64,000 nucleotides of DNA, taken from assembly GCF_003008425.1 (NCBI RefSeq), contig NZ_PXOQ01000007.1, positions 372,001 through 436,000 on the forward strand. The letters are read 5' to 3'. Made by a program: the position numbers and the translations under genes. The stretch is from Aurantibacter aestuarii (GTDB lineage: Bacteria; Bacteroidota; Bacteroidia; Flavobacteriales; Flavobacteriaceae). This document shows, piece after piece, positions 18,658 to 35,263 of the stretch (positions are counted from its first letter, which is position 1; every line of letters starts with the position of its first letter). Under the pieces are notes generated by a model. The model searched no databases, had not been told where the DNA came from, and saw only the letters and a program-made list of their open reading frames with translations.

Positions 18658-18659
18658 TA

Positions 18660-19715
18660 TTATTTAACTACTTTTCTAATAACACAGTTACTAAGTTCAT
18701 TGGCAAAAATCGGCAATTTCTTGTCTCCACCAATTAATGTCACTTTTTCTATTGTGGTTGGCTCTCCAATATTACCTTCATCTAACCAAACTGAATAGGT
18801 TCCTTTAGAATCATTTGTATTAATAGTTACAGAACCTATAGAACTATTATTACATTTGTTAAGCCATAGACCTGTAATTTTTTGAGTATCTCCTTTCTCA
18901 GAATCCTCTAAATCACTAACATTATTATAGTTTCCATTACCATAATTATCTATATTTATGTTATTTATTATGTGGTTATTACCTGTTAAATAAATAGCAT
19001 GCCTATCACAATTTGTAATAGTAATTTTATTTATTTCTAAATTTGATGGATTATTATTCCAACCGTGTACTTGTAAAGCAGCTCTCGTTAAAGTATGATT
19101 ATCTGCAGAAGAACCCACACCATTAATTTCTAATTCATTTATATAAACATAATCTACGCCAGCGTATATGTCGCAACCCATAGATGATGATTTAATACTG
19201 TTTTTAGAAATATCTGAGGTAATTATTAACTTATCAAACTCTATGTCCTTTGAGTTTCTCATAAAAACTTTATAATATGTTGTGATAACTCCAGAGACCT
19301 TTATGTCCTTTGATTTTTTTAAAGAATCATTATCTATAATATAGATTGGTCCTGTAAATTTTGCATTTTTTGATATTATTTCAACATTTTCTAACCCCTT
19401 AATAAAAATACCAAAATTGTAAGTCCCTTCTGGAAACAGGATTGGGAATTTATATTTAGATGATATTTCTAAAACAGTTTCAATAGTAGATTTTTTACTG
19501 TAAGGATGTATTTTATCATTTTCTCCAATAATAATTCCATATCTTCTTACATCACCAATTTCATAGACGTCATTAATTGCATAATTTTTTTCAATTACTT
19601 TCCAGTTTGTACTATTTTCTTTATCCTGTACTTTATCTATTTTTATTTCTTTATTTTCTTCTTTACAGGATATTGTTATAATAATTAAAACAATTATGTA
19701 TATAGTATTTTTCAT
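18660..19715 (-). CDS. Predicted lipoprotein with right-handed beta-helix fold
   Basis: The 351 residues begin with a lipoprotein signal (hydrophobic residues 4-15, lipobox ITISC, Cys17) and a charged KEENKEIKIDK linker, so the protein is tethered to a membrane outside the cytoplasm. The rest reads as parallel beta-helix rungs with many short Asn/Asp/Ile repeats such as ITNCDRHAIYLTGNNHIINNINIDN (described, not a single motif). This fold is common in pectate lyases, polysaccharide epimerases and phage depolymerases. No specific catalytic residues can be assigned. It overlaps the upstream polymerase by 4 bp, so its product is made together with the polymerase. Binding, trimming or epimerising the glycan is inference. 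Confidence 0.65.
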   Translation of the reverse strand: MKNTIYIIVLIIITISCKEENKEIKIDKVQDKENSTNWKVIEKNYAINDVYEIGDVRRYGIIIGENDKIHPYSKKSTIETVLEISSKYKFPILFPEGTYNFGIFIKGLENVEIISKNAKFTGPIYIIDNDSLKKSKDIKVSGVITTYYKVFMRNSKDIEFDKLIITSDISKNSIKSSSMGCDIYAGVDYVYINELEINGVGSSADNHTLTRAALQVHGWNNNPSNLEINKITITNCDRHAIYLTGNNHIINNINIDNYGNGNYNNVSDLEDSEKGDTQKITGLWLNKCNNSSIGSVTINTNDSKGTYSVWLDEGNIGEPTTIEKVTLIGGDKKLPIFANELSNCVIRKVVK

Positions 19716-21037
19716 TTAAAAAAGCGTATTTGTTTTCTTTCATTATTTACCTGAAATATGATTTTACTTGATGCTAATTTAAATAAAAAAATGAATAGCA
19801 AAAGTGAAAATATAGTATAAAGTCCTTGTGCAGAGTCTATAAAATTAATTACAGGAATAAAAAAATCTATAATTAGGAAGTAAAACAACAAAGGAATGTA
19901 TTTAAAATTTCCTTTTAATATTTTATTATATACTATACTTTGTAATATACCAAAAAAGAACATAAAAAAAGGAGCTAACCATCCAAAATCTATATATGTT
20001 GGCCCAAAAAAAGTTGTATATATACCAGTTCTTGGGGCGCTATTCTGTATTTTATTTAAATCTATATTTGTTCCTAATATAATATTTGTAAACTTAAATA
20101 TTATACCAAATGTAAAAGCTCCATAGTAATGTGGGTTTTCATAATTTTTTTGTAAATAAGCAAACTCAAATATTCCATGACAATAATATTGTGCTACATT
20201 CATATGAGTAAGCTTTGCCATTTTTAGTGTTTTTATTTCGGTATTAATAATATTATCTCTTGCTTTTTCAGTGGGTTCTAATGTAAAATTGTAAACTGCG
20301 TTTGTTAATATATGTTTTATTGCTCTTTCATCTGTAACCATATATTCTTTAGTTCTTTCAACAAAAAATCTTGTTGTAATCAACAAACCTATAAATAAAA
20401 ATATTCCAATAATTAAAGTTTTTGATAGAGTAAATTTTATTAGTTGAAAATAGCTAACAATTATTGCGAAAAATATAATTACGATAAATATACCAGACCT
20501 AGAACCCATTATTAAATTATCGAAAACTGGTAAGAAAAAAACTACAAGACAAATTAAACCAAAGAATTTTGACTTTAATTTTAAAAAATGAAATAAAAAA
20601 AATGGAATATATGAAAACGGAGTCATCATGGCTGACAAGACCCCAAAAATACTTGGTTTTATAGCCACTAGTAACTTTCTGTTTTCTATAGTTGTATCTC
20701 CAATTACAATTTGTCTTATTACTAATTTATCTATTAGTCTAAATACAAAACCTAATATGGCTACTGTAATAAAAATATATAATAGTAGTAAAACTGTTTC
20801 TTTTTTTGGAATAAACTTCTTATTAATAGTTACTGGGGTTTTTCTAATAAGAAGAAAACCCGTGAACAAGGCAATATAATTTATAAAAATATATAAAATA
20901 CTTACAAAAGAGGCTGGTTCTTTAATTTGCATTGAGGCAGAAAAAAAGAAAAAAAGCCACAAAAGAATACCGAAAAATGTAACTCTTTGGGGGTTGAATT
21001 TTTTTAAAAAAGTAGTATTTATAAGCTCAAAATTCAT
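19712..21037 (-). CDS. Wzy-type O-antigen/oligosaccharide repeat-unit polymerase (copy 2)
   Basis: This 441-residue polytopic protein (about ten helices) shows the same landmarks as the protein at 14889-16145: a MGSRSGIF segment near residue 177, HMNVAQYYCHGIFEFAY in the periplasmic loop, and TTFFGPTYIDFGWLAPFF before a late helix. The two are clearly homologous but divergent, so this is an old duplication or two separate acquisitions. It would join repeat units in the periplasm. The ATG overlaps the upstream acyltransferase by 4 bp and it is followed with another 4-bp overlap by the beta-helix lipoprotein. Confidence 0.7.
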   Translation of the reverse strand: MNFELINTTFLKKFNPQRVTFFGILLWLFFFFSASMQIKEPASFVSILYIFINYIALFTGFLLIRKTPVTINKKFIPKKETVLLLLYIFITVAILGFVFRLIDKLVIRQIVIGDTTIENRKLLVAIKPSIFGVLSAMMTPFSYIPFFLFHFLKLKSKFFGLICLVVFFLPVFDNLIMGSRSGIFIVIIFFAIIVSYFQLIKFTLSKTLIIGIFLFIGLLITTRFFVERTKEYMVTDERAIKHILTNAVYNFTLEPTEKARDNIINTEIKTLKMAKLTHMNVAQYYCHGIFEFAYLQKNYENPHYYGAFTFGIIFKFTNIILGTNIDLNKIQNSAPRTGIYTTFFGPTYIDFGWLAPFFMFFFGILQSIVYNKILKGNFKYIPLLFYFLIIDFFIPVINFIDSAQGLYTIFSLLLFIFLFKLASSKIIFQVNNERKQIRFFK

Positions 21038-21771: not shown

Positions 21772-22265
21772 AATACTCTGTTTTTTGCGCCTACAATTAT
21801 TTCACTTTCATTAACATTTTTAGTAATCACAGCTCCTGCCCCAATTATTGCATTTTTTCCGATGGTAACACCTCCTAAAACCATAACATTCGTTCCTAAC
21901 CATACACCATCTTCAATAACTATTGGTTTTGATATATGTTTATAAGGTTGTTGTGTTGAAAAATCTAAACCAGCCGTTTCTAATATCACACCTCTTGAAA
22001 GCGTTACATCATTACCAATTGTTATAGGACTCATAGCACCTAAGCTAGAGTATTTACCAATTCTACAATAATTACCAATAGTAATATTTTCTCCATGCTT
22101 TATTTCTGTTGTGTAATGACATAAGCTATCTCCAGAATTCTTTACTAAAGCTTTAAATTTAAGATTACTTAATACTCTAACAAATAAAGACTGAATTCTT
22201 ATAAAGAATAATACAGTATATCTAACAAAAAATATTGAAGAAAAAAATTGTGCTATTTTTCTCAT
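21768..22265 (-). CDS. Hexapeptide O-acetyltransferase (maltose/galactoside acetyltransferase-like)
   Basis: This 165-residue left-handed beta-helix protein has clear rungs: HGENITIGNYCRIGKYSSLG, then ITIGNDVTLSRGV, IVIEDGVWLGTNVMVLGGV and ITIGKNAIIGAGAVITKNV. This matches the NodL/LacA/WbbJ type that moves acetyl from acetyl-CoA to a sugar hydroxyl. The protein is short and contains little beyond the catalytic helix and a basic, hydrophobic N-terminal segment. It is coupled to the second acyltransferase (4 bp overlap) and starts on the last base of the PhyH gene stop. O-acetylation of the glycan repeat is the likely role. Confidence 0.85.
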   Translation of the reverse strand: MRKIAQFFSSIFFVRYTVLFFIRIQSLFVRVLSNLKFKALVKNSGDSLCHYTTEIKHGENITIGNYCRIGKYSSLGAMSPITIGNDVTLSRGVILETAGLDFSTQQPYKHISKPIVIEDGVWLGTNVMVLGGVTIGKNAIIGAGAVITKNVNESEIIVGAKNRVL

Positions 22266-23143
22266 TATTTGACAATTAATCTATTAATATATTTACTGTA
22301 CATAAAATCTTTAACTTTTACTGGCGTATATTCTTCTATTCCAATATCTTGTAATGAGTATTGAACTTGAAGTAACAACCTCTCCTCTTTTTCAGGCAAT
22401 AGACCTTTATGAAAACCATATGTATTTACCATAAACATACTACCTTTATCTCCTGTAAAATATAACACGTTTTCTTTTCCAAAATGATTTTCTATTTCCT
22501 TATCACTATACCTTTTTATTTTGGTTAAAGTATTACTTGAAACCGAGTTTTGTACATAAACATGTGGTCCACTTTTTAATGTTACGTCTGTTAAATATAA
22601 AAAAAGCTTGCAAAACTTATAATCATCTACATCTCTATGAAAGAATTGTGCTTGTTCCGCTTGATCTTTGTTAGGCATAGACCACCAGCAATTTATATTA
22701 CTTATAGTAGGTTTTGCTCCTAAAAAATTTTGAGTTAATTTTAAAATTTCTGGGTCGTTAGCTATATCCATTATTTCAGGAATTTTAGCTAAGTCTGATC
22801 TCTTGTAATTGGCAACATGAACAGCACTCGGGATATCCTTATGTAAAAAATCTCCAAGCTCTGGCCTGTAAGGGTCACAACACTTTAAGCCCAATAACTT
22901 TTTTTTAATATTATTAACCTCTTCTATATTTATAATTTTTCCAAAGTCTATAAAGCCTAAAGAGTTTAAGCTGTTATTGTACTCTTTGTCTAAAATTGAA
23001 GATCCCGAAAAATTTTCTTTACCAATTTTAGATGCTATTTTTTTACTTATTTGTTCTCTTTTATCAAAATCTTGAACGCTTCTTTGATAATAAAATTTAA
23101 TTTTTGATAAAGATCCAAATCGATTTATTAATTTTCTTATCAT
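22265..23143 (-). CDS. Phytanoyl-CoA dioxygenase (PhyH)-family Fe(II)/2-oxoglutarate oxygenase
   Basis: This 292-residue protein has the non-haem iron facial triad expected of PhyH enzymes: HxD in QFFHRDVDDYKF (about residues 175-185) and the distal His in NTYGFHKG near residue 246, followed by the 2-oxoglutarate-binding Arg in ERLLLQVQYSL. The intervening SGPHVYVQNS strand is also typical. Such enzymes hydroxylate small molecules or glycan substituents using O2. It sits directly between a predicted glycosyltransferase and the acyltransferases, with single-base overlaps on both sides, so a substrate in this glycan pathway is likely. Which group is hydroxylated is unknown. Confidence 0.8.
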   Translation of the reverse strand: MIRKLINRFGSLSKIKFYYQRSVQDFDKREQISKKIASKIGKENFSGSSILDKEYNNSLNSLGFIDFGKIINIEEVNNIKKKLLGLKCCDPYRPELGDFLHKDIPSAVHVANYKRSDLAKIPEIMDIANDPEILKLTQNFLGAKPTISNINCWWSMPNKDQAEQAQFFHRDVDDYKFCKLFLYLTDVTLKSGPHVYVQNSVSSNTLTKIKRYSDKEIENHFGKENVLYFTGDKGSMFMVNTYGFHKGLLPEKEERLLLQVQYSLQDIGIEEYTPVKVKDFMYSKYINRLIVK

Positions 23144-24450
23144 TATTTTTCTATGATTTCATTAAAAGCACTCACAATTAAATTAATATTATCCTCATCT
23201 AAACAATTAGGATCATTAAAAACATCTGAGACATTTCCTTCATAACTTGTCCGGTTTAATAGATTTATGAGACCTATTTTTTCATCTAAAGTTGCTTTAG
23301 GAAAGCTATCGTTTTTAACATTTAATATGATGTCTTCTAAGTTATCTAGTTTTTCTAAATAAATACAATTTTTTACTGTATTATTTAAAGTCTTTATAAG
23401 TGTAACTACAGGTTTATTTGCCAATATACTTTCTATGGCTACTGTTCCTGTGACTGTTATAATTAAATCAAAATCATTAAAAACTTCTGTCATTGAGGTT
23501 GAGTGACTAATCATTTTTATTTTTTTATGATTAGAAACAAAATGAATCATATCGCCATCCACCTCATATCTTGGTTTAGGATTTGGCTTTACATATAGTA
23601 TAGCATCTTCTGGCAGGTTTTCAACAATTTCCTGTATTACTTTTAATTGGTTTCTTCTAGGTCTTCCCCAAACATCTATATTTTCTTCAGGTTGAACTTG
23701 TAGGGGATATAAAACTTTAAAACCATCTGTTTTATCTACTCCTTCTTGGGCTAAAACGTCCCATTTTTGTTTATTCTGGTTTTTAGTTTTTTCAATTTTT
23801 AATTTTACAAAAGGGCTTGGTGTATTATATTTTTCACCTAAATAATAACCTCTCGTTTTATATAATTTATCTTGAAGTTTCTCAAACTTAGTTTTTACTA
23901 ACGGCTTCATATAATCTGGAGCAATCACTCGTCCATTTATATTGTCTATAATTTCTATCGCTTTTTCTCTAGGAAGATCTTTATTGCAACCACCATAAGA
24001 TTCCATTGTATGATAAAGGTAAAAGGTAAATTTATTGGTTGGGTAACGACAAGGTAGTGGGTTTAAATATTTAATTCCAAGTTCTTTACAGTGTTTTGCA
24101 ATTAATAACTCATGAAATAGCGTACACTCTCCAAAAATAAAATCTGGATGAATCTCATGAACTAACTTTTTTAACACCTCGGAATAATAATAAAAATGGC
24201 TTTTATCTTTATACTCGAAGTAATTCATGTTACGATCGGATTCTATAATGTAGTCTATAGATTTATCTGGCGTATAAGTTTTACTATTTTTTTTGGGATA
24301 CGGAATTATGTGTGTGTTAAATTTACTTTTAGGTGCAAATTTTTTGTTTTGAACAATCCAAAATATATCATGTCCTTGCTCTTGAAGTTTTAATGCTATA
24401 GCTTCAAAGAAAAAGGTTTTATATTGATTTTCTACAAATAGTAATTTCAT
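23143..24450 (-). CDS. Capsule-type (KpsS/LipB-like) GT-B glycosyltransferase, candidate pseudaminic acid transferase
   Basis: These 435 residues have two Rossmann-like halves. The N-terminus (KLLFVENQYKTFFFEAIALK) and the C-terminal VTGTVAIESILANKPVVTL block match the capsule-polysaccharide-synthesis glycosyltransferases, whose GT...E...KPV motif binds the nucleotide. Members of this broad group use CMP-activated acidic sugars such as Kdo, and some relatives transfer nonulosonic acids. The gene directly follows pseI with a 2-bp gap, at the end of the pseudaminic acid genes. Transfer of CMP-pseudaminic acid or its derivative is therefore a reasonable inference, not shown by motifs alone. Confidence 0.65.
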   Translation of the reverse strand: MKLLFVENQYKTFFFEAIALKLQEQGHDIFWIVQNKKFAPKSKFNTHIIPYPKKNSKTYTPDKSIDYIIESDRNMNYFEYKDKSHFYYYSEVLKKLVHEIHPDFIFGECTLFHELLIAKHCKELGIKYLNPLPCRYPTNKFTFYLYHTMESYGGCNKDLPREKAIEIIDNINGRVIAPDYMKPLVKTKFEKLQDKLYKTRGYYLGEKYNTPSPFVKLKIEKTKNQNKQKWDVLAQEGVDKTDGFKVLYPLQVQPEENIDVWGRPRRNQLKVIQEIVENLPEDAILYVKPNPKPRYEVDGDMIHFVSNHKKIKMISHSTSMTEVFNDFDLIITVTGTVAIESILANKPVVTLIKTLNNTVKNCIYLEKLDNLEDIILNVKNDSFPKATLDEKIGLINLLNRTSYEGNVSDVFNDPNCLDEDNINLIVSAFNEIIEK

Positions 24451-24452
24451 TA

Positions 24453-25469
24453 TTATTTTATTAATTCTAAACTTAAAGGAGTCCCTTTTTTATAATCTTC
24501 TAAAAAGGTTTTTCCTAAAACCTCATCGTAATATTTAGGGTGCAAACCAAAACTTGGTCTAACAGATTTAATGTTTTTCTCTGAAAGTGTTTGACCAGCT
24601 CTAACATCTTCAGCGATAAAAAGTGACCTAGAAAATTCTCTGCTAGACTTCTTTTTTTTAGTCATTTCATAATCTACTTTGCCCATCATCTTTTCTGTTA
24701 GCCGCACAGCATTTACCATTTGGGTAAACTCTTGCTCGTCTAATGAAAAGTGAGCATCTGCTCCGCCAATAGATTTATCTAAAATAAAATGCTTTTCTAT
24801 AACTGTTGCCCCTAAAGCAACTGCGACTACTGGAGTTTCTGTACCTAAAGTATGGTCCGACAAGCCAGATTTAACTTTAAACCTATTTACAATATCTGGT
24901 ATGGTTAATAAATTTGCATCTTCTGGCTCGGCAGGATAAGCAGATGTGCATTTTAAAATAGTTATATCATTATTACCTTGTGCTTTACAAGTTTTTATAG
25001 CTAATTCAATATCCTCAATAGTTGCAATACCAGTAGAAATAATAACAGGTTTTTGTTTTGATGCCACATATTTAATAAGTGGTATATCTGTAATTTCAAA
25101 AGAAGCAATTTTATATATAGGTGCTTCAAGCGTTTCTAAAAAATCTACCGCAGAAATATCAAAAGGCGAAGAAAAACAAACTAAACCTTCTTCTTTTGCT
25201 AATTGAAATAATTCCTTATGCCATTCCCAAGGTAAAGAGGCTGTTTTATATAAATCATGTAAATATTGCCCATCCCAAGAGGTGCCTTGAGAAATTTTAA
25301 ATAAATCACTTTTTACATCTAGTGTAATGGTATCTGCCGTATAGGTTTGCAATTTAATTGCGTCTGCACCAGCACGTTTTGCCGCTCTAACGGTTTCTTT
25401 AGCTATATTTATATCTCCACCGTGATTTGCTGAAAGTTCTGCAATGATAAAGCACTTTTGAGTGTTCAT
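24453..25469 (-). CDS. pseI: Pseudaminic acid synthase
   Basis: PseI condenses 2,4-diacetamido-2,4,6-trideoxy-L-altrose with phosphoenolpyruvate to give pseudaminic acid. The 338 residues form a NeuB-type TIM barrel (IIAELSANHGGDINIAKE at the start, DAIKLQTYTADTITLD, KIASFEITDIPLI, SGLSDHTLG, VIEKHFILD) and a C-terminal SAF domain from about residue 285 (SRSLFIAEDVRAG). The SANHGG start and length favour PseI over sialic (NeuB) or legionaminic (LegI) synthases, and the surrounding pse genes agree. It starts one base before the end of the PseG-PseH gene region and is co-transcribed. Confidence 0.95.
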   Translation of the reverse strand: MNTQKCFIIAELSANHGGDINIAKETVRAAKRAGADAIKLQTYTADTITLDVKSDLFKISQGTSWDGQYLHDLYKTASLPWEWHKELFQLAKEEGLVCFSSPFDISAVDFLETLEAPIYKIASFEITDIPLIKYVASKQKPVIISTGIATIEDIELAIKTCKAQGNNDITILKCTSAYPAEPEDANLLTIPDIVNRFKVKSGLSDHTLGTETPVVAVALGATVIEKHFILDKSIGGADAHFSLDEQEFTQMVNAVRLTEKMMGKVDYEMTKKKKSSREFSRSLFIAEDVRAGQTLSEKNIKSVRPSFGLHPKYYDEVLGKTFLEDYKKGTPLSLELIK

Positions 25470-26930
25470 TTATTTTTCGAGTTTATATACAAAACTAACA
25501 TTTCCTTTTATAATTTCCTCTTTTATATACATATATCTCGCATTCTCAAAGGATTTAATAGAGGCTTTATTCTCTTTTTTTATATATGCCCAAATTGGTA
25601 TGTTGTAATTTTTGAAGTATAGCTCTGCACTCTGTTTTAAAAACTCTGGAGCTAATTTTTGACCTCTAAAAATTTTATCTATTAAAATGCCTACTACAGC
25701 GTGGTTTTCATAAATCTCATAACGAACGACTCCTGCTGGTTTATTATCTACTTCTGCTATTAAAAACAATGTGTTTTTATCTTTTATTTTTTTCGAAAAC
25801 CATTCTAAATGATTTTCCCAAATTAAAGGTTCGCTGTTAAATGAAAACTGCCTTACAACTGGTTCATTAGACCAATCAAAAACAAGTTTTGCATCTTGTA
25901 AGTTTACTTTTCTAAATTTTAGGTTTAATTGGTGTATTAAACCTAAAAAACGTGTTTTACTAAATCCATCTATTAACTGCTTTTGTTGATTTAAATACCC
26001 AGAAAAATCATTTTTATTTAAAATAGCTTCAATTTTAAGCTTAAAGTCTGCTATAGAATAATTTGAAAAATCGTCTCCTTTAAAAACAATACCTCTATCG
26101 CTTAAAGCCCTGTATATATATTTTTGATTTTCTACATAATAGCCACTTAAAATTGGCATTTTTACAGCGCACAGTTCGTATAGGATGGTACTTGATGGCG
26201 CAATACCCAACTGGCATTTTTTCATTAATAGACTTAGATGTTCTTCATCTAAGTTAGAGTGAAGTTTAAGGTTTTGAGACGTTTGTTCTAGGTCGTAAAT
26301 ATCAGAATGATTGTAAGCACCTCCTAAAACGACATGAACTTGTTTAATTTTTTCTATTTGAAGTAGAGCTAAAGCTGCTTTATAAGATAAATTATATGGA
26401 TCCGCACCACCAAAACACACAAAAACCTCTTTAATCGTAGAAAAATTATTTTCTAATTGTGCTAAACGGTTAAATTTAGGTCTAAGCATTGCATAAGAGG
26501 TGCCTAATGCAAATTTAGTGTAGTTTTCGCTTTTAAAGTGCTCTTCTTTAGCAAATGGTGAATGATTTACAACAATGTCTGCAAACATATGCTCGCTCAT
26601 TAAGTCGTCTATATAAATTAATTGAAAGCCTTGAGATTTTATTTGCTTTTGGTAAGTTGAATCAAATTGATAACCATCGGCAACTATGATAATATTTTTA
26701 GAGCTGTACTGTTCTTTTATCCAAGTAGCTTCTTGTTCTAAAACAATATGTTCTGGAATTAACTTTGTTGTATAATCTTGAGGGATACTTTTTAAAGTAG
26801 ACGTTTCTCTTGTTAAAAAAATAACTTCAAATGTGTCCTTGTAAAATTCTATTATAGAAAATATACGGTACATATGCCCTAATCCTATTATAGAATTTCC
26901 GTCTGCTCTACATAGAATTTTTAAGGACAT
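25470..26930 (-). CDS. pseG-pseH: Fused UDP-sugar hydrolase PseG and N-acetyltransferase PseH
   Basis: One 486-residue chain carries two pathway steps. Residues 1 to about 330 are PseG, a GT-B-like hydrolase releasing UDP from the di-N-acetylated L-altrose derivative. It begins CRADGNSIIGLGHMYR, with the expected catalytic His19, and has FVCFGGADPYN and the late SSTILYELCAVKMPILSGY block. Residues from about 338 (KFRKVNLQDAKLVFDW) to the end form a GNAT domain like PseH, with WSNEPVVR, GVVRYEIY and an RGQKLAPEFL acetyl-CoA loop. No separate pseH gene exists in the operon, which fits a genuine fusion. In most described pathways the two are separate proteins. Confidence 0.9.
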   Translation of the reverse strand: MSLKILCRADGNSIIGLGHMYRIFSIIEFYKDTFEVIFLTRETSTLKSIPQDYTTKLIPEHIVLEQEATWIKEQYSSKNIIIVADGYQFDSTYQKQIKSQGFQLIYIDDLMSEHMFADIVVNHSPFAKEEHFKSENYTKFALGTSYAMLRPKFNRLAQLENNFSTIKEVFVCFGGADPYNLSYKAALALLQIEKIKQVHVVLGGAYNHSDIYDLEQTSQNLKLHSNLDEEHLSLLMKKCQLGIAPSSTILYELCAVKMPILSGYYVENQKYIYRALSDRGIVFKGDDFSNYSIADFKLKIEAILNKNDFSGYLNQQKQLIDGFSKTRFLGLIHQLNLKFRKVNLQDAKLVFDWSNEPVVRQFSFNSEPLIWENHLEWFSKKIKDKNTLFLIAEVDNKPAGVVRYEIYENHAVVGILIDKIFRGQKLAPEFLKQSAELYFKNYNIPIWAYIKKENKASIKSFENARYMYIKEEIIKGNVSFVYKLEK

Positions 26931-26936
26931 CTTTTT

Positions 26937-27716
26937 TTAGTTTATAGGAATAAATGTTTTTTCTACTAGCCTAACAGGTTTTCCAACCTCTTGGATAGCT
27001 AATTTTAAATCTCTTGGTGTATAACGTGTAAAATGAAAGATACTTGCTGCTGCAACCGCTTCTATATTTGTTTGAGAAAATAACTCTTTAAAATGTTGAG
27101 GTTCTCCAGCCCCACCAGAAACCACAATTGGTACATTTATAATTTTTTCAACTTGTTTTACCAAATCTATATCGAAACCATTCATCATACCATCGTTATT
27201 TACAGATGTTAATATAATTTCGCCAAAATTATAATTCTTAATATCTTCTAAATACTGAAAAAGCGGAATTTTTTTATTTAAGCGATTGTATAAATAATAA
27301 ATTCCATCGTCTTCTTTTAAGGCGTCTATAGCTAGAACTATACACTGATTGCCAAATATTTCTGAAGCTTGATTTATAAACTCCGGGGTTTCAATAATTT
27401 TATTTTTTAAAACAACTTTATCTGCACCAATAGCTAATAAATCGTTAATATCTTCAATAGTTTTTATACCTCCACCTAAAGCTACTGGCATAAAACATTC
27501 GTTTATAATTAAACGAGCCATTTGAAGGTTCATTTTCCTGTTTTTATCAGACGCATAAATGTCTAAAAAAACCAATTCATCTACATTTCTTGCATTGTAA
27601 ACTTTTGCCGCTTGTACTGCATTACCCACCATACGTGCATTACCAGCATAGCCTTTTGTTTTTACTAAAGCAAAACCATTAAACGTTAAAACTGGAATAA
27701 CTCTACATTTAAGCAT
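26937..27716 (-). CDS. HisF-like cyclase subunit of a sugar amidation complex (WbuZ-like)
   Basis: This 259-residue TIM barrel is related to imidazole glycerol phosphate synthase HisF: RVIPVLTFNGFALVKTKG, DELVFLDIYASDKNR, PVALGGGIKTIEDIN, GADKVVLKN, ILTSVNNDGMMNGFD and PIVVSGGAGEP are visible. Several positions depart from histidine-pathway HisF, no other his genes are present, and the HisH- and PP-loop partners are adjacent. This matches the WbuX/WbuY/WbuZ arrangement used to turn an N-acetyl group into an acetamidino group on sugars. It overlaps the HisH-like gene by 8 bp. The barrel would pass ammonia from the glutaminase to the amidotransferase, by analogy with HisF. Confidence 0.85.
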   Translation of the reverse strand: MLKCRVIPVLTFNGFALVKTKGYAGNARMVGNAVQAAKVYNARNVDELVFLDIYASDKNRKMNLQMARLIINECFMPVALGGGIKTIEDINDLLAIGADKVVLKNKIIETPEFINQASEIFGNQCIVLAIDALKEDDGIYYLYNRLNKKIPLFQYLEDIKNYNFGEIILTSVNNDGMMNGFDIDLVKQVEKIINVPIVVSGGAGEPQHFKELFSQTNIEAVAAASIFHFTRYTPRDLKLAIQEVGKPVRLVEKTFIPIN

Positions 27717-28329
27717 ATTGATCTATAATTGTTTTTAATAATAATAAACCTACTTCTTGACTTTTCTCTGGATGAAATTGCATGGCATATATATTATCTT
27801 TTTGTAATCCTGCAACCATTTCTAAATCGTAATTTACAGTAATGCAAACATCTTCTATAGCTTCTGCCTTAAAGTGATAACTATGTATAAAGTAAAAGTC
27901 TTGTTTGTTAAATGGTTTATATAGCTCACTTTTTTGATTAGAAACTATATTAAGACTATTCCACCCTAAATGTGGTACTCTTAAATTTTTAGGCGAATTA
28001 ATTTTTATAACTTCTCCTTTTATAAAGTTTAAACCCTTAACTTTAGTAGGTTCATTACCGTATGTAGCCAAAAGTTGCATCCCTAAACAAATTCCTATAA
28101 ATGGCTTTTTTTTATTTAAAACTTCTTCATTTAAAACCTCTATTAATCCATATTGTTTTAAATTCTCCATCCCTTTTTTAAAAGAACCAACGCCTGGTAG
28201 TAAAATTAAATCGGCATTACGTATATCTTCAGCATAATTTGTAATAATACTGTTGTAACCTAGTTTCTTGAGCACTTTTTGTACAGAAGCAACATTACCC
28301 ATGCCATATTTAATAATTGCAATAGTCAT
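27709..28329 (-). CDS. HisH-like glutaminase subunit of a sugar amidation complex (WbuY-like)
   Basis: This 206-residue class I glutamine amidotransferase has the full triad: Cys81 in FIGICLGMQLLA, and His186 and Glu188 in MQFHPEKS, with LILLPGVGSFKKGM forming the oxyanion region. It would hydrolyse glutamine and deliver ammonia to the HisF-like partner encoded by the next, overlapping gene. The setting inside the pseudaminic acid operon argues for sugar amidation, not histidine synthesis. Its start codon shares a base with the stop of the amidotransferase gene upstream. Confidence 0.88.
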   Translation of the reverse strand: MTIAIIKYGMGNVASVQKVLKKLGYNSIITNYAEDIRNADLILLPGVGSFKKGMENLKQYGLIEVLNEEVLNKKKPFIGICLGMQLLATYGNEPTKVKGLNFIKGEVIKINSPKNLRVPHLGWNSLNIVSNQKSELYKPFNKQDFYFIHSYHFKAEAIEDVCITVNYDLEMVAGLQKDNIYAMQFHPEKSQEVGLLLLKTIIDQYA

Positions 28330-29480
28330 TAATTTATCTCAAAATTACGTATTAGGTTACCATCATTATCTCTAGCAAACGAGCCGTCATCATTCATTTT
28401 AAATAATACAGGATTGGTATATGAGTCTAAGATTTGATCTATTTCCCTTTTTGTCATACCAGAATACTCAATAAATGCATTTACCGAAAGATGTGGGTAT
28501 TTACCATCAAATTTTTTAACAAGCTCTAAGCCTTCTTCTCTTGTAAGTCTTTTATTTCTTATATCTATACAAGCATGGTCTGTTGCTCTACCAAAACCAT
28601 ATTTTACGAACTTCAAATAATCATGAAGACCTACAATTTGTTCATCTATATTTTCATAATTTGTATAAGTTCCTTCTACTGGCCCATCTTCTTTAACCTC
28701 AAAACCATGCTTTTTAATAATTTCTAGTTGCTTTCTAGCATCCCAAAAGAAATAATGTCCTAAAAAGATACTGGTTATTCCTGTTTTTTCAATTTCTTCG
28801 TCTGATGGGTAAAAATATGGTGTTAATTCTTTAGCTGTTAAACCATCTACACCAATCATATCTTGAATTCGATTTCCTAATAATCCACCAAATTCTTCTA
28901 ACCAGCTTCTAGTTAATTTATTATTCTCTATACTTTCAAGTGGACCGCCATATTCTTGTTGTGAATTTTCTCCCCAAATAATTAAGGGAATATTAAATTT
29001 TACAGCTATGTTAATTGGAATGGTAAAAATACCAATATGGTTTGGCCACATTTCATCACCAACACGAATAAACCCTTCCTTTACCATAGATTTATAAGCA
29101 TTGTAATTTTTTTTAAAATGGATAACATCTATACCCATTTTAGAAATATTATCTAAATTTCGACGTCCTATTTCTGTCACCATTGTAGTTTCAAAACAAA
29201 CACAAAGGGGATTCATACCCCAAACTTCTTTCATAAAATAAGCTTGGTATGTTGAATCTTTTCCGCCACTAACAGGTATTAAACAGTCGTAGCCAATTTC
29301 ATCATCTTTAAGTTTAAATTTATCTATAATTGTTTTAAAATCTGCTTCTCTCTGTTTCCAATCTATCCCTTTATCCTTAGACTCTGCAGCAATACAAGCA
29401 GAACAAACACCATTATCGTTAAAGTACAAATCAGGCTTTGTTTCAGGAAAAAGGCAAACATTACAATAATTAATTTCCAT
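28329..29480 (-). CDS. N-acetyl sugar amidotransferase (WbuX/PseA-like, PP-loop ATPase)
   Basis: This 383-residue PP-loop enzyme activates a sugar amide with ATP so ammonia can replace the oxygen, giving an acetamidino group. The PP-loop SGGKDS is at residues 71-76. Four cysteines at 6, 9, 26 and 29 (CNVC and CSAC) form a probable zinc knuckle. IWGENSQQEYGG and the LGHYFFWDARKQLE segment are typical of this family. It was described as PseA in Campylobacter flagellin glycosylation and as WbuX in O-antigen loci. With the HisH/HisF-like genes it should form a three-protein complex modifying pseudaminic acid or another HexNAc in this locus. Confidence 0.9.
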   Translation of the reverse strand: MEINYCNVCLFPETKPDLYFNDNGVCSACIAAESKDKGIDWKQREADFKTIIDKFKLKDDEIGYDCLIPVSGGKDSTYQAYFMKEVWGMNPLCVCFETTMVTEIGRRNLDNISKMGIDVIHFKKNYNAYKSMVKEGFIRVGDEMWPNHIGIFTIPINIAVKFNIPLIIWGENSQQEYGGPLESIENNKLTRSWLEEFGGLLGNRIQDMIGVDGLTAKELTPYFYPSDEEIEKTGITSIFLGHYFFWDARKQLEIIKKHGFEVKEDGPVEGTYTNYENIDEQIVGLHDYLKFVKYGFGRATDHACIDIRNKRLTREEGLELVKKFDGKYPHLSVNAFIEYSGMTKREIDQILDSYTNPVLFKMNDDGSFARDNDGNLIRNFEIN

Positions 29481-30109
29481 TATTTATTTTTTTTTAATAA
29501 AAACCACGTGATATCATCTTGAGGGAAATTCACATCTCTTTTATATGAAAACCCATAATCTATTAGTTCTAATGAAGGATATTTATCTAACATTTCTCCT
29601 GCAAAATCTCGTTTATACAATCTATCTGAATGACCTCTATAACTAATAGTTACTGGAGAAGGGTTATAATATTCGCCAATTAATATATATTTTTTAGAGC
29701 TGTTAAATAATTTTTCATAGACTACAGAAAGCATATCTGGATTAATATGAATTAAAACACCTTTTATAAAACTTACATCAAACTGTTCTTCCGATGAAAA
29801 ATCGAATATAGATTGATTAAACACATTTTGCTCTCCAATAGTTTCTTTAAGTATAGCTGCTGCTTTTTCGTTAATTTCCACTGCTTTTATTTGAGTTCCT
29901 GGAAATAATAACTTTAAAGCTTTTGAGTTCATTCCAATATTTGCACCAAATTCTATAAACGATTCTGGTTTAACTACACTAGATAAAGCTTTGTTAAAAA
30001 AATTAAGATTAGAGGCTAATAGTTTTTCTCCTTTATTTCTGTCTATATATTGCTCGCCAAATTCTCCTGCCCAGAATTCTTCTTGGTCTGTTTTATACGT
30101 TTTTTTCAT
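29480..30109 (-). CDS. Pseudaminic acid biosynthesis-associated methylase
   Basis: This 209-residue class I SAM-dependent methyltransferase has motif I in FIEFGANIGMNSKAL (about residues 52-66), QIKAVEINEKAA as the acidic loop, and the VSFIKGVLIHINPD segment. The opening TDQEEFWAGEFGEQYI is characteristic of a methylase family found next to pse genes. It would methylate a hydroxyl or amidine/amine of pseudaminic acid or its precursor. The exact site is unknown. The gene overlaps pseF by 17 bp and shares a base with the amidotransferase gene, so it is translationally tied to both. Confidence 0.88.
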   Translation of the reverse strand: MKKTYKTDQEEFWAGEFGEQYIDRNKGEKLLASNLNFFNKALSSVVKPESFIEFGANIGMNSKALKLLFPGTQIKAVEINEKAAAILKETIGEQNVFNQSIFDFSSEEQFDVSFIKGVLIHINPDMLSVVYEKLFNSSKKYILIGEYYNPSPVTISYRGHSDRLYKRDFAGEMLDKYPSLELIDYGFSYKRDVNFPQDDITWFLLKKNK

Positions 30110-30797
30110 TATGTAAATTTTTATAATTATATTTTATATTAAGCATTTGCCAATCTTCTAATGTATCGACATCCTGAGCTTCATGTTCTTTTAATTCTAT
30201 AAACCCTGTTTTATTTGAAAATATCGTTTTTTCATTCAAAAAGTCTTCAACATTTAGCCAGTAAAACTGACCAGAATCGTGATAATGAGTTTCTAAATCT
30301 TGAGATCTTGTATTGATATGTTTAGGTTCTCTAAGTTTTAAAATGCCCTTTTCTGCTTTAAAAGCTCTTTGAATAGGGTAACTAAATGCTATAACTGGGA
30401 CTACTGTATTTAAATTTTTATTTTTTAAAAGGTCAAAGCCTTCTTTTATTTTTGATGGTAAAATTAATGCAGCTGTAGGCAACATACAACATACGTGTTC
30501 AAATTGTTTTCCTTGTTGTTTATACATGCTTAAAACTTCCAATATAACCTGAGATAGCGTCGCAAAATCATTTGCGCTTTCTTCATTTCTAAGAAAAGGA
30601 ACTTTTGCTCCCAATGTTTCAGCTATATTTTTAATTTCTAAGTCATCTGTTGAAACCATGACCTCATCAAATAAATTTGAGTTTTTTAAGGTCGTGATCG
30701 TATATTCTATAATCGGTTTATTATGGAATAATTTAATGTTTTTTTTTGGAATACGTTTGCTTCCGCCTCGTGCTGGTATGATTGCTAAATTAGCCAT
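30093..30797 (-). CDS. pseF: Pseudaminic acid cytidylyltransferase
   Basis: PseF activates pseudaminic acid with CTP to CMP-pseudaminic acid, the donor for glycosyltransferases. The 234 residues show IPARGGSKRIPKKN (residues 6-19, the CTP-binding loop), FDEVMVSTDD, and the HDSGQFYWLN segment that distinguishes PseF from sialic acid CMP-synthetases. The length is normal. It overlaps pseC by 8 bp upstream and the methylase by 17 bp downstream. Confidence 0.95.
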   Translation of the reverse strand: MANLAIIPARGGSKRIPKKNIKLFHNKPIIEYTITTLKNSNLFDEVMVSTDDLEIKNIAETLGAKVPFLRNEESANDFATLSQVILEVLSMYKQQGKQFEHVCCMLPTAALILPSKIKEGFDLLKNKNLNTVVPVIAFSYPIQRAFKAEKGILKLREPKHINTRSQDLETHYHDSGQFYWLNVEDFLNEKTIFSNKTGFIELKEHEAQDVDTLEDWQMLNIKYNYKNLHNEKNV

Positions 30798-31938
30798 TTA
30801 AAAAAATTAAAACTTTTTCTATAACATAAATCTGCTCATCACTAGTTAAGCTAGGGTACATTGGCAGACTTATGCATTTACTATAGTAATCTTCAGCATT
30901 CTGTAAATTTGCACCTTCGTAACCTATTTGCTTATAATATGGAAGTGTATGTACTGGAATATAATGTATTTGTGCATAAATATTCTCTTCTTTTAAATAC
31001 TCATAAAGCGCTTTACGATTTTGTACCTCAACAACGAATAAATGATGCGCATTATATAAATTCTCTGGTAAATTTTGAAATTTTAATTTACCACTAAACG
31101 CTTTTTTATAATTTGAAGCTATTTCATTTCGTCTTCTTACACCATTCTCATTTTTTGCTAATTGTGTTATACCTAGAGCACTTTGTATATCGGTTAAACG
31201 GTAATTAAATCCTAAAGTTTGCATTTCGTAATACCAAGCCCCATGGTTTTCTGTCATATGGTCTTTAGTAATCCCATGAGTACGTAGAAGATTTAATTTT
31301 TTGTAAAGTTCTTCTGAATTTGTTGTTAACATACCACCTTCTCCACAGGCGATATGTTTAACTGGATGAAAGGAAAACACGCCAATATCTGCATAAACAC
31401 CATTACCACAAAACTGTTTTTCGTTTTTAGAATCTATAAAATAGCCTCCAGGTGCATGACAAGCATCTTCAATAATCCACAAGTTATGTTTGTTTGCTAA
31501 TTCACGAAATAATTCAAGGTTTACAGGCAGACCAGCAAAATCTACTGGAATAATTCCCTTAAAAAAACCCTTGGGTTTACTCTCTATAAGCTCTTTAGTA
31601 CTTTCTAAACTTAACGTGTACGTTTCTCTATCTATATCTGCAAACCAAACTTCGGCACCTGCATAACGTACACAGTTTGCTGACGCCGCAAAAGTTATTG
31701 GTGTAGTTATAACACGGTCTCCAGGTTGTAAATCTAACGCTAAAACAGCTAGATGTAATCCCGCAGTTGCATTATTAACTGCAACCGCATATTTTGAACC
31801 AACATAGTTTGCAAAAGCAGTTTCAAACTCTGCTACTTTTGGTCCTTGTGTTAAATAATCTGAGGTTAAAGCTTGTACAACAGCATCTATATCGTCCTGC
31901 TGAATATTTTGCTTACCATATGGAATAGATTGTTTCAT
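30790..31938 (-). CDS. pseC: UDP-4-amino-4,6-dideoxy-N-acetyl-beta-L-altrosamine transaminase
   Basis: PseC aminates C4 of the PseB product using glutamate and PLP. The 382 residues begin IPYGKQNIQQDDIDAV, with LTQGPKVAEFE, NNATAGLHLA and the PLP-lysine motif FSFHPVKHIACGEGG (Lys194). EDACHAPGG holds the cofactor-contacting Asp158, and FNYRLTDIQSALG follows. The IPYG...ITQ/LTQGP opening and GVFSFHPVKH are typical of PseC. It starts 2 bp after the pseB stop and overlaps pseF by 8 bp. Confidence 0.95.
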   Translation of the reverse strand: MKQSIPYGKQNIQQDDIDAVVQALTSDYLTQGPKVAEFETAFANYVGSKYAVAVNNATAGLHLAVLALDLQPGDRVITTPITFAASANCVRYAGAEVWFADIDRETYTLSLESTKELIESKPKGFFKGIIPVDFAGLPVNLELFRELANKHNLWIIEDACHAPGGYFIDSKNEKQFCGNGVYADIGVFSFHPVKHIACGEGGMLTTNSEELYKKLNLLRTHGITKDHMTENHGAWYYEMQTLGFNYRLTDIQSALGITQLAKNENGVRRRNEIASNYKKAFSGKLKFQNLPENLYNAHHLFVVEVQNRKALYEYLKEENIYAQIHYIPVHTLPYYKQIGYEGANLQNAEDYYSKCISLPMYPSLTSDEQIYVIEKVLIFLNG

Positions 31939-31940
31939 TT

Positions 31941-32960
31941 TTAAGCTTCAAACGTTGCATCTACATGCTCTTTAATTAGTGTTCTTAAACTTTCTACCGT
32001 TTCCCATTTTTCGTTATCTCCAGAATTGTAACTAAAGCCACTTTCTACTTTTTTAGCATCAAAAGCTTGTATAAAATCATCTACACTCCACGATGGGGTA
32101 GCAGGAATAATAGTATAGTACTTTCCTAAATCGTAAGTATAGAAAGAGTCTGAAGCAGTAATCATTTCTTCATGAACTTTTTCTCCAGGACGAATTCCAA
32201 CAACGGGTTTTTCACAATTTGGTCCAATTGCTTCGGCAACATCCATAATTCGATAAGATGGGATTTTGGGCACAAATAATTCGCCACCCCAAGCGTGCTC
32301 TAAAGCATGCATTACCATATCTACTCCACCTTGAAGAGAAATATTGAATCTAGTCATGTTTGGATCTGTTATTGGTAACTTATTATCTTCTTTCTTTTTA
32401 TTAATAAAAAAAGGAATAACAGAGCCATTAGACCCCATAACATTACCATATCTAACGACAGAGAAACGAATTGGATTTTCACCTTTAATATTATTGGCTG
32501 CAATAAATAATTTATCTGAAGTCAATTTAGTAGCACCGTAAAGGTTTATAGGTGCGCAAGCTTTATCTGTAGATAATGCAACGACACGTTTAACCTTAGT
32601 TTTAAAACAAGCATCTACTACATTTTCTGCACCACCAATATTTGTTTTAATACATTCGTCTGGGTTATATTCTGCAATATGTACATGTTTCATTGCTGCA
32701 GCATGTATAACATAATCTACCTTTTGAAATGCACGTTCTAACCTTTCTTTGTCACGAACATCTCCAATAAAATAACGTATTTGAGGGTATTTTGATGCAG
32801 GAAACTCTTGAGCCATTTGAAACTGCTTTTGTTCATCTCTTGAGAAAACAATTAAGCGTTTTAAATTTGGATACTTATGTAATATATGAGTCGTTAAAGC
32901 TTTTCCTAAAGAGCCTGTACCTCCTGTAATTAGTATTGATTTTTCTTTTAAATCTAGCAT
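31941..32960 (-). CDS. pseB: UDP-N-acetylglucosamine 4,6-dehydratase (inverting)
   Basis: PseB makes the first committed intermediate of pseudaminic acid, dehydrating UDP-GlcNAc with C5 inversion. The 339 residues have the NADP site ITGGTGSLGKAL (residues 10-21), GDVRDKERLERAF, AAAMKHVHIAEYNP and NLYGATKLTSDKL with the YxxxK pair. The KHVxxxEYNPxExxxTN block is typical of the PseB/FlaA1 inverting dehydratases and unlike the membrane-bound retaining PglF type. It opens the pse operon: a 41-bp AT-rich gap separates it from the upstream epimerase, with no clear -7 element. Confidence 0.95.
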   Translation of the reverse strand: MLDLKEKSILITGGTGSLGKALTTHILHKYPNLKRLIVFSRDEQKQFQMAQEFPASKYPQIRYFIGDVRDKERLERAFQKVDYVIHAAAMKHVHIAEYNPDECIKTNIGGAENVVDACFKTKVKRVVALSTDKACAPINLYGATKLTSDKLFIAANNIKGENPIRFSVVRYGNVMGSNGSVIPFFINKKKEDNKLPITDPNMTRFNISLQGGVDMVMHALEHAWGGELFVPKIPSYRIMDVAEAIGPNCEKPVVGIRPGEKVHEEMITASDSFYTYDLGKYYTIIPATPSWSVDDFIQAFDAKKVESGFSYNSGDNEKWETVESLRTLIKEHVDATFEA

Positions 32961-33001: not shown

Positions 33002-33988
33002 TTAAACATTTTTATTATTAAACCAGTCTAGAGTTATTCCCAACCCTTTCTCTAATTCAAATTTAGGTGTGTAATTTAATAGATTTTTCGCTTTGCTAAT
33101 ATCTGCTAAAGAATCTTTTACATCACCCTGTCTTGGTGAATTATACTTTATTTCACTTTTTGAATTAGTGATTGTTTTTATGGTATTCCATAATTTATTT
33201 ACACTAATCCTATCATTAACAGCTACATTGAATACTTCATGCTGTTCTAAATTAGAAAGTACTGCTTTAATATTGGCTTGCACAACATTTTCTATAAATG
33301 TAAAATCTCTAGTTTGCTCGCCATCACCATTAATTGTAATGGTCTTATTTCCCAACGCACCCTTCATAAATAATGGAATAACCGCCGCGTAAGCACCGTT
33401 TGGATCTTGCTTAGGGCCAAAGACATTAAAATATCGTAATCCGATTGTATGAACACCGTACGTTTTTGAAAATACATCTGCGTACAACTCGTTTACGTAT
33501 TTTGTTATAGCATATGGAGATAACGGTTTACCAATATTATCTTCAACTTTTGGTAACACTTTACTGTCTCCATAGGTACTAGAAGACGCTGCATAAACCA
33601 TTTTTTTAACGGTTTTTGACTCTTTTACGGCTAACAACATATTAAGAAATCCAGATACATTTACATCGTTTGAAGTAATAGGATCGTTTATTGATCTTGG
33701 AACAGAACCTAATGCTGCTTGGTGTAGTACATAATCTATATCTTTAATAGCAGTTTTACAGGTTTCTAAGTTCCTTATATCACCTTCTATAAATTCACAT
33801 TTTGGTGGGTTTACGAAACCTTCTATATTTTTAAAATGTCCATTGCTAAGATTGTCTAAAATAACGACCTTTTTTGCATTATACTTTAATAAATACTCGA
33901 CAAGATTAGATCCTATAAATCCAGCTCCACCTGTAACTAAAAAAGAGTAAGTTGATAAATCGTTTGTATGATAAGGGGTTTCGTACAT
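33002..33988 (-). CDS. UDP-N-acetylglucosamine 4-epimerase (WbpP-like)
   Basis: This 328-residue extended SDR enzyme shows [17 protein letters not shown] (about residues 18-34), ILDNLSNG, LHQAALGSVPRSI, SSTYGD and the YAITKYVNE catalytic pair. The HQAALGSVPRSIxDP stretch is the hallmark of the WbpP/GalE-2 group that interconverts UDP-GlcNAc and UDP-GalNAc or their uronic acids. It follows a WbpO/TviB-like dehydrogenase by 6 bp. Together they would supply UDP-N-acetylgalactosaminuronic acid. The N-terminal ~15 residues precede the usual start and may be a lineage extension. Confidence 0.88.
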   Translation of the reverse strand: MYETPYHTNDLSTYSFLVTGGAGFIGSNLVEYLLKYNAKKVVILDNLSNGHFKNIEGFVNPPKCEFIEGDIRNLETCKTAIKDIDYVLHQAALGSVPRSINDPITSNDVNVSGFLNMLLAVKESKTVKKMVYAASSSTYGDSKVLPKVEDNIGKPLSPYAITKYVNELYADVFSKTYGVHTIGLRYFNVFGPKQDPNGAYAAVIPLFMKGALGNKTITINGDGEQTRDFTFIENVVQANIKAVLSNLEQHEVFNVAVNDRISVNKLWNTIKTITNSKSEIKYNSPRQGDVKDSLADISKAKNLLNYTPKFELEKGLGITLDWFNNKNV

Positions 33989-33994
33989 TTTATA

Positions 33995-35263
33995 TTATAA
34001 TCGTTTATCAATTTTAGTAACATCCAAAGTTCCTTTAACATCGTAAATTACTGCATTTTCTTTTGCCAGTTTTGTGATGTCTAAAGTTTTAAATTTAGTG
34101 TGAGCTACAGTATGAATTATAGCGTCATAGGCTTCATTTAAATTTTCCTTTAAAGTAATTCCATATTCACTTTCTACTTCGTTTTTATCCGCCCAAGGAT
34201 CGTAAACATCCACATTCATATTAAAAGATGCTAAGGTTTTGTAAACATCTATTGCTTTAGTGTTTCTTATATCTGGACAGTTTTCTTTAAACGTAATCCC
34301 TAACATTAAAACTTTCGAATTTTTAACTTCAATAGCTTTTTGAGCCATTAATTTTAAGACTTGTGTTGCCACAAATTCTCCCATAGAATCATTAATACGT
34401 CTTCCTGCTAAAATAATTTCTGGATGGTATCCAACTTCCTGAGCTTTTTGGGCTAAATAATATGGGTCTACGCCTATACAATGCCCACCAACTAAACCTG
34501 GTTTAAATGGTAAAAAATTCCATTTTGTTCCTGCAGCTTCTAAAACTGAATGTGTATCAATGTCTAATTTATTGAAAATTTTTGCTAACTCATTAACAAA
34601 TGCAATATTAATATCGCGTTGGGCATTTTCAATAACTTTAGCAGCTTCTGCTACTTTAATACTTTGCGCCAAATGGGTTCCTGCAGTTATTATTGATGCA
34701 TAAACTGCATTTACTTTTTCACCAATCTCTGGCGTAGAACCTGATGTTACTTTTTTTATTTTCGTAACCGTGTGTGTTTTATCACCAGGGTTTATACGCT
34801 CTGGAGAATAGCCGCAATAAAAATCTTTATTAAATTGAAGTCCGCTATTTTTTTCTAAAATAGGGACACAAACATCTTCAGTAACACCTGGGTAAACGGT
34901 AGATTCGTAAACCACAATGTCATTAGGTTTTAAAACCTGTGCAATGGTTTCTGATGCTTTAACTAACGGAGTTAAAATTGGCATTTTATTATCGTCTACT
35001 GGTGTAGGTACGGTTACAATATAAAAATTGGCTTCTTTTAAATCATCTATACTTGATGAAAAAACCAAGCCTAATTTTTCCTGATTCAAAACTGACTGTA
35101 GCGCCTTTTTAGAAACCTCTAAGGTATGATCTTCCCCTTTATTTAATTCTGAAATACGGCTTTGATTAATATCGAAACCTATAACTTGATACTTTTTTGC
35201 AAACTCCACAGCTAAGGGCAATCCAACGTAACCTAAGCCTATTATAGCTATTTTAACTTCCAT
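33995..35263 (-). CDS. UDP-N-acetyl-hexosamine 6-dehydrogenase (WbpO/TviB-like)
   Basis: This 422-residue nucleotide-sugar dehydrogenase oxidises C6 of a UDP-HexNAc to a uronic acid. Seen are [38 protein letters not shown], the [13 protein letters not shown] block and the catalytic Cys262 in [13 protein letters not shown]. The [11 protein letters not shown] and PERINPGD motifs place it with the WbpO/TviB (UDP-GalNAc/GlcNAc) group, distinct from the UDP-glucose dehydrogenase at 9538-10836, which has GGSCFPKD. Its neighbour is the matching 4-epimerase. Confidence 0.9.

Follow-up and report, generated by a model that had tools for sequence, protein, structure and literature searches.

The 64,000-nucleotide stretch analysed here (the window) covers positions 372001-436000 of contig C4 in the 2.9-Mb genome of Aurantibacter aestuarii and contains an operon for pseudaminic acid (Pse). 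Read along the minus strand from 32960 to 24453, pseB, pseC and pseF are followed by a methylase gene, by the genes for a PP-loop protein, a HisH-like protein and a HisF-like barrel (together, the trio), by a pseG-pseH fusion and by pseI (Table 1). The original prediction had placed a WbuX/PseA-like PP-loop enzyme, the HisH-like and HisF-like proteins and a methylase between pseF and pseG-pseH, with overlaps of 1-17 bp. Coordinates and family scores agree with that arrangement, and the measured overlaps were 17 bp (pseF/methylase), 1 bp (methylase/PP-loop), 1 bp (PP-loop/HisH-like) and 8 bp (HisH-like/HisF-like), followed by a 6-bp gap without overlap at the HisF-like/pseG-pseH junction. All cassette genes have intact reading frames, and in profile searches PseB, PseC, PseF, PseG and PseI all exceeded the curated family cut-offs. 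The new observation reported here is that the methylase and the trio are unequally paired modules.

Table 1 Genes of the Pse cassette and the candidate glycosyltransferase gene that follows it, with positions in the window.
Feature	Position	Strand	Profile evidence
pseB, UDP-GlcNAc 4,6-dehydratase (inverting)	31941..32960	-	TIGR03589 501.6 bits, cut-off 407.75
pseC aminotransferase	30790..31938	-	TIGR03588 469.2 bits, cut-off 423.5
pseF cytidylyltransferase	30093..30797	-	TIGR03584 278.6 bits, cut-off 205.7
Pse-associated class I S-adenosylmethionine (SAM) methylase (Pse_Me-ase)	29480..30109	-	TIGR03587 303.4 bits, cut-off 112.05
PP-loop N-acetyl sugar amidotransferase, WbuX/WbpG/PseA type	28329..29480	-	TIGR03573 (WbuX) 382.3 bits, cut-off 203.2
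HisH2-type glutaminase, predicted ammonia source	27709..28329	-	TIGR01855 220.3 bits, cut-off 105.4
HisF2-type barrel, predicted ammonia conduit	26937..27716	-	best model WbuZ, under cut-off
pseG-pseH fusion, hydrolase and GNAT acyltransferase	25470..26930	-	TIGR03590 178.6 bits, cut-off 153.55; TIGR03585 42.1 bits, cut-off 93.1
pseI pseudaminic acid synthase	24453..25469	-	TIGR03586 505.7 bits, cut-off 340.25
Candidate glycosyltransferase, directly after pseI (role inferred)	23143..24450	-	PF05159 Capsule_synth 30.1 bits, cut-off 20

Residues and families of the predicted amidation trio

N-acetyl sugar amidotransferases are marked by an SGGXDS motif and a tetracysteine CXXC...CXXC zinc motif (PMC10607449). 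The PP-loop protein carries SGGKDS at residues 71-76 and cysteines at positions 6, 9, 26 and 29, and it also exceeds the TIGR03573 cut-off, in agreement with an N-acetyl sugar amidotransferase on both counts. One solved relative is LpNASAT of Legionella (PDB 8wex, E 4.1e-52). The HisH-like protein scores above the HisH cut-off and retains the triad C81, H186 and E188. In the HisF-like barrel, a threonine replaces D11 of HisF, which we take to be a catalytic residue, and D130 is retained. Across homologue sets that mix PP-loop subtypes, the HisH triad was present in 65/65 sequences and SGGKDS in 39/39, with each of the four PP-loop cysteines in 38/39 (one gap); HisF D11 was found in only 5/65.

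Separate histidine genes scoring over the cut-offs lie on another contig (hisF at G000:C6:263626-264375, hisH at 265562-266128). A histidine-biosynthetic role for the HisH/HisF-like pair was thus rejected, the genome having its own hisF and hisH elsewhere and the barrel having lost D11. Because, in addition, the glutaminase triad is kept, feeding ammonia to the PP-loop enzyme is the most likely role of the pair, and the residues as a whole fit a trio for ATP-dependent amidation.

Distribution of the cassette

Among 249 sampled genomes of the window's family, the methylase scored over its cut-off in 2, WbuX in 7 and PseI in 22. Both methylase genomes (that of the window and G125) hold the whole cassette, in G125 with a slightly altered order in which pseF lies between the PP-loop and methylase genes. 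Besides its full trio, G125 encodes a second, short PP-loop protein beside pseI (L035 2987-3871), which is 294 aa long and scores 79 bits against the one in the window.

A wider scan for the methylase, with one genome per species, gave 227 relatives, of which the best 80 loci were analysed; seeded with two peptides taken from two methylases and limited to the best 80 of 227, it is biased towards close relatives. Of the 80 loci, 55 carried three or more of pseB, pseC, pseF and pseI, and 18 were without a core pse gene, which is an upper bound as short contigs may hide genes (L103 and L104 are one genome). The 55 pse-operon loci comprised 25 with the trio, 2 with a PP-loop gene only and 28 with neither (likewise an upper bound; one of the latter, L098, with a broken PP-loop gene), in classes that rest on score limits set by us and with the 25/55 read by hand.

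Pseudomonadota show the same gene order, pseC-pseF-methylase-PP-loop-HisH-HisF-pseG/H-pseI, and slightly altered versions of it occur in other Bacteroidota and in one Cyanobacteriota bin. Its recurrence across phyla shows that the cassette is more than a chance arrangement. The supposition that the combination is special to flavobacteria did not hold: the methylase is rare in the family, yet the cassette is present in these other groups. The window's PP-loop subtype lies with at least three of pseB, pseC, pseF and pseI in 26/30 loci from several phyla (also read by hand), which favours Pse as the amidation target.

Near-identical cassettes were seen in two Pseudomonas, an Atopomonas and a Ca. 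Accumulibacter bin (L063, L067, L070, L074), which suggests recent transfer or a binning error. Downstream, near 17260-18800, these four loci carry a second HisH/HisF/PP-loop set of another subtype.

Association of a PP-loop subtype with the methylase

We also searched from the PP-loop side in 395 Bacteroidia genomes. The window's subtype was found in seven, at 72-100% identity (next match, 40%), and in each of the seven a gene scoring above the TIGR03587 cut-off lay no more than about 1.5 kb away; four of these linked methylases belong to a quite different branch of TIGR03587. The other PP-loop loci from this search had a methylase within 1.5 kb in 0/22 cases, and seven of the 22, extended to about 8 kb on each side, still showed none. 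In a PP-loop tree, the methylase-adjacent rows formed one side of a branch (32 rows; Shimodaira-Hasegawa-like approximate likelihood-ratio test, SH-aLRT, 90). This was a quick tree of 61 rows with long-branch warnings elsewhere, from which 10 rows shorter than 290 aa were left out (L083, L098, L035_2990, L180, L184, L154 and second copies in L063, L067, L070 and L074). As most of the methylase-adjacent rows had been collected through the methylase, the PP-loop-first search is the fairer test.

PseI exceeded its cut-off in 75 Bacteroidota genomes. Of those with the methylase, 5/8 had WbuX within 10 kb of pseI, vs 6/67 of those without it (Fisher p 0.001, or 0.002 counting G401 at 10.8 kb; the genomes are related, and p is a guide). 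These positions were compared by eye, and three of the five (G324, G374, G455) carry another PP-loop subtype; in G481, WbuX and pseI are on separate contigs. The link runs mostly one way, from the PP-loop subtype to the methylase.

The methylase without the trio

The closest relative of the window's methylase, at 75% identity, is that of Ulvibacterium marinum (L036), which a quick tree placed as its sister (support 99). The pse operon of U. marinum has the same gene order, and no trio was found within 10 kb. At L036 11732-13565, PseH is joined to a formyltransferase-like domain and accompanied by a deacetylase-like protein. U. marinum may therefore combine a methylase of this kind with another N-acyl decoration. 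When the methylase tree was labelled by trio, the best tree needed at least 11 changes, a count that depends on the label, which was assigned by hand and includes rows with only a PP-loop gene (L069, L092, L106, L108), one scored as none (L098), and rows whose non-adjacent PP-loop gene belongs to a different subtype (L069, L075, L079).

Lone TIGR03587-type genes with no pse gene found nearby were also seen (L038, L042, L045, L087, L101, L111 and others), mostly in Bacteroidota genomes that carry pseI elsewhere. Sixteen loci lacked both the core pse genes and the trio; our lone-methylase set took in 15 of them (all but L102) together with L053, which has pseI in the locus. PseI exceeded its cut-off in 11/15 of these genomes (12/16 counting L053), compared with 56/395 in the phylum sample (for 11/15 vs 56/395, Fisher p 8e-7, again a guide because the genomes are related). 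WbuX was within 10 kb of pseI in 0/12 of the PseI-positive genomes, although short contigs could hide some; the nearest was about 16 kb away (G638). Hence, with PseI enriched and no WbuX near pseI, the methylase tracks Pse even when unlinked from its genes, and not necessarily amidation.

Fold and family of the methylase

The AlphaFold model of the methylase has a class I fold (predicted local distance difference test score, pLDDT, 88.3). VIA-align placed the sugar N-methyltransferase NodS in the first row (Z 19.0), with N- and O-methyltransferases mixed in the following rows (Z 17.8 to 16.6), and Foldseek returned ChlM first and NodS second. N-methylation would be possible on this structural comparison, which does not settle N against O. 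The TIGR03587 family is named purely after gene neighbours, and a full-text literature search, which misses most subscription papers, returned no paper with its full family name. The present results tie TIGR03587 to Pse even where the methylase gene lies elsewhere in the genome.

Neighbouring genes

The candidate glycosyltransferase after pseI scored just 21.7 of 200 bits against the BFO_1060 family (NF046086). It is followed at 22265-23143 by a gene for a 292-aa protein without a Pfam or NCBIfam match at E 0.001. By a sequence motif, this protein is a putative phytanoyl-CoA dioxygenase-type oxygenase; relatives occur in 6/80 methylase loci (L037, L043, L071, L089, L103, L114). Two polymerase-like membrane proteins are encoded at 14889-16145 and 19712-21037. 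Because the latter passes the oligosaccharide repeat unit polymerase model TIGR04370 (52.9 bits, cut-off 40), Pse may become part of a surface polysaccharide that is polymerised. TviB/TviC-like genes lie upstream of the pse operon (33002-35263).

Proposed pathway and alternatives

We consider it probable that the operon makes cytidine monophosphate (CMP)-Pse carrying an amidino and a methyl group by way of two tailoring modules, with methylation independent of the trio. The chemistry, step order and acceptor glycan are those that we infer from the observed gene content and order, residues, histidine genes and unequal co-occurrence. PseB, PseC, PseG-PseH, PseI and PseF would produce CMP-Pse, and the methylase would methylate the Pse unit at least once, without needing the trio. 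Afterwards or in parallel, the trio would convert an N-acyl group, most likely N-acetyl, to an amidino group: the HisH-like protein would hydrolyse glutamine, the HisF-like barrel would pass on the ammonia without a HisF cyclase reaction, and the PP-loop enzyme would activate the amide with ATP so that ammonia can attack it. The tailored product would then pass to a glycosyltransferase encoded in the surface polysaccharide locus around the operon. An amidino and methylated CMP-Pse had been predicted originally and is still the best prediction, given a trio and a Pse-associated methylase in a pse operon and the Pse context of most subtype loci.

Several observations weigh against this reading or parts of it. 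The PseH domain is under its cut-off (42.1 of 93.1 bits) with a GNAT domain present, and because of this divergence the C7 acyl group may differ from acetyl. The HisF-like barrel falls under the cut-offs for WbuZ (247.7 of 299.7), AglZ/HisF2 (220.6 of 310) and the imidazole glycerol phosphate synthase HisF (215.8 of 294.55); since by score it belongs to none of the three, it is labelled HisF2-like here without being assigned to a family. Sequence comparison with the PDB at E 0.1 gave no relative of the methylase, so that its substrate rests on association. The seven subtype genomes come from four families, three of them from one family and two of these from one genus, and are therefore not independent cases. 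Methylases also accompany other PP-loop subtypes in the pse loci of G324 (where such a PP-loop gene adjoins the methylase gene), G374 and G455, and the pairing is thus not exclusive to the window's subtype. One cassette, on a 14-kb contig (L109), had no pse gene found with it, and the well-supported branches of the methylase tree alone force just 3 changes of the trio label. Finally, part of the linkage pattern could come from genes hitchhiking together in a conserved operon.

The alternative that deserves most attention is that the methylase acts on the nitrogen of the newly formed amidine. Its product would be an N-methylacetamidino Pse, matching Leg5AmNMe7Ac on the legionaminic backbone. 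Amidine N-methylation is known on legionaminic acid in L. pneumophila (PMC13306086) and from C. coli PtmG/PtmH (PMC13317340), the methylase and PP-loop genes overlap by a single base pair, an N-methyltransferase heads the VIA-align rows (Z 19.0 vs 17.8) and is second in Foldseek, and the window's subtype comes with a methylase in 7/7 genomes. Such an enzyme should depend on the trio, and the reverse was seen: the trio is absent from 28/55 pse-operon methylase loci, including the nearest relative with its identical gene order, and none of the 12 Pse-making lone-methylase genomes had WbuX within 10 kb of pseI. The co-occurrence test therefore disfavours strict amidine methylation, which we regard as unlikely, and we favour a methyl at a Pse position other than the amidine, added first or in parallel with amidination. 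A stronger form of the pathway, in which a dedicated amidotransferase subtype of Bacteroidota, Pseudomonadota and at least one Cyanobacteriota acts only on Pse methylated by TIGR03587 enzymes, which would make methylation a prerequisite for amidination and the product a widespread, so far unrecorded methyl-amidino Pse, is a tentative proposal that we put below the independent one.

That the trio amidinates some other N-acetyl surface sugar, such as a TviB/TviC-like uronic acid, with its place in the pse operon incidental, seems improbable to us. WbuX-type enzymes accept several sugars (PMC10607449), L-FucNAm occurs in Flavobacterium columnare (PMC3210612) and TviB/TviC-like genes do lie upstream, but the 26/30 loci of several phyla in which the subtype accompanies pse genes speak for Pse. 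A silent or partly non-functional cassette could be suspected from the divergence of the PseH and HisF-like proteins; with intact reading frames, catalytic residues where expected and the same gene set retained in slightly different order in G125, it is the least credible of these explanations. Two tailoring modules acting on Pse thus remain our preferred reading. The ties of TIGR03587 to Pse and of the PP-loop subtype to TIGR03587 offer a simple mass-spectrometry test for a sugar methylase that many environmental bacteria encode, and should improve the genome-based prediction of surface nonulosonic acids.

Comparison with known systems

Campylobacter PseA, which we take to be a PP-loop enzyme encoded beside HisH and HisF genes, resembles the present system, together with the Pse pathway, in pseudaminic acid amidation. 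Set beside it by description, the window differs in the overlap of its PP-loop gene with a TIGR03587 methylase gene and in its pseG-pseH fusion. PseA is a CMP-Pse5Ac7Am acetamidino-synthase (PMC13317340). In papers matching Pse together with methyltransferase, amidotransferase and HisH, the cassette was not described in the titles and abstract openings of the matches listed, most subscription papers lying outside the search.

The sugar is not, as had been suggested, little-described in kind, since nonulosonic acids with both amidino and methyl groups have been reported in Campylobacter (PMC3068675) and Legionella (PMC13306086). C. jejuni NCTC 11168 makes di-O-methylglyceroyl derivatives of Pse5Ac7Ac and Pse5Ac7Am (PMC3068675, citing Logan 2009) and thus likewise has methyl groups and an acetamidino group on Pse; there, however, the methyls sit on the glyceroyl substituent and depend on Cj1295. 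L. pneumophila has an N-methyl acetimidoyl legionaminic acid (PMC13306086) and shares with C. coli PtmG/PtmH (PMC13317340) an amidino and a methyl group on a nonulosonic acid, but the backbone is legionaminic and the methyl is on the amidine. LpNASAT matches the PP-loop protein in sequence family, tetracysteine and SGGXDS motif (PMC10607449).

The Shewanella oneidensis flagellin carries what is probably Pse, together with a second, O-methylated moiety (PMC3765264). In Clostridium butyricum, a further methyltransferase, with a role that is not clear, is noted upstream of pseF (PMC13317340). Closer to the window's family, Cellulophaga fucicola has a Pse-containing O-polysaccharide and the sugar of F. 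columnare is an acetamidino fucose (PMC3210612). Tannerella forsythia makes Pse5Am7Gra and encodes the 445-aa glycosyltransferase GtfS after pseI (PMC6120980). It thus provides, as predicted for the window, a case of amidino Pse in Bacteroidota with a glycosyltransferase following pseI, but its amidation is tentatively assigned to an AsnB-like protein and not to a HisH/HisF/PP-loop trio, and its methyl groups are on other sugars.

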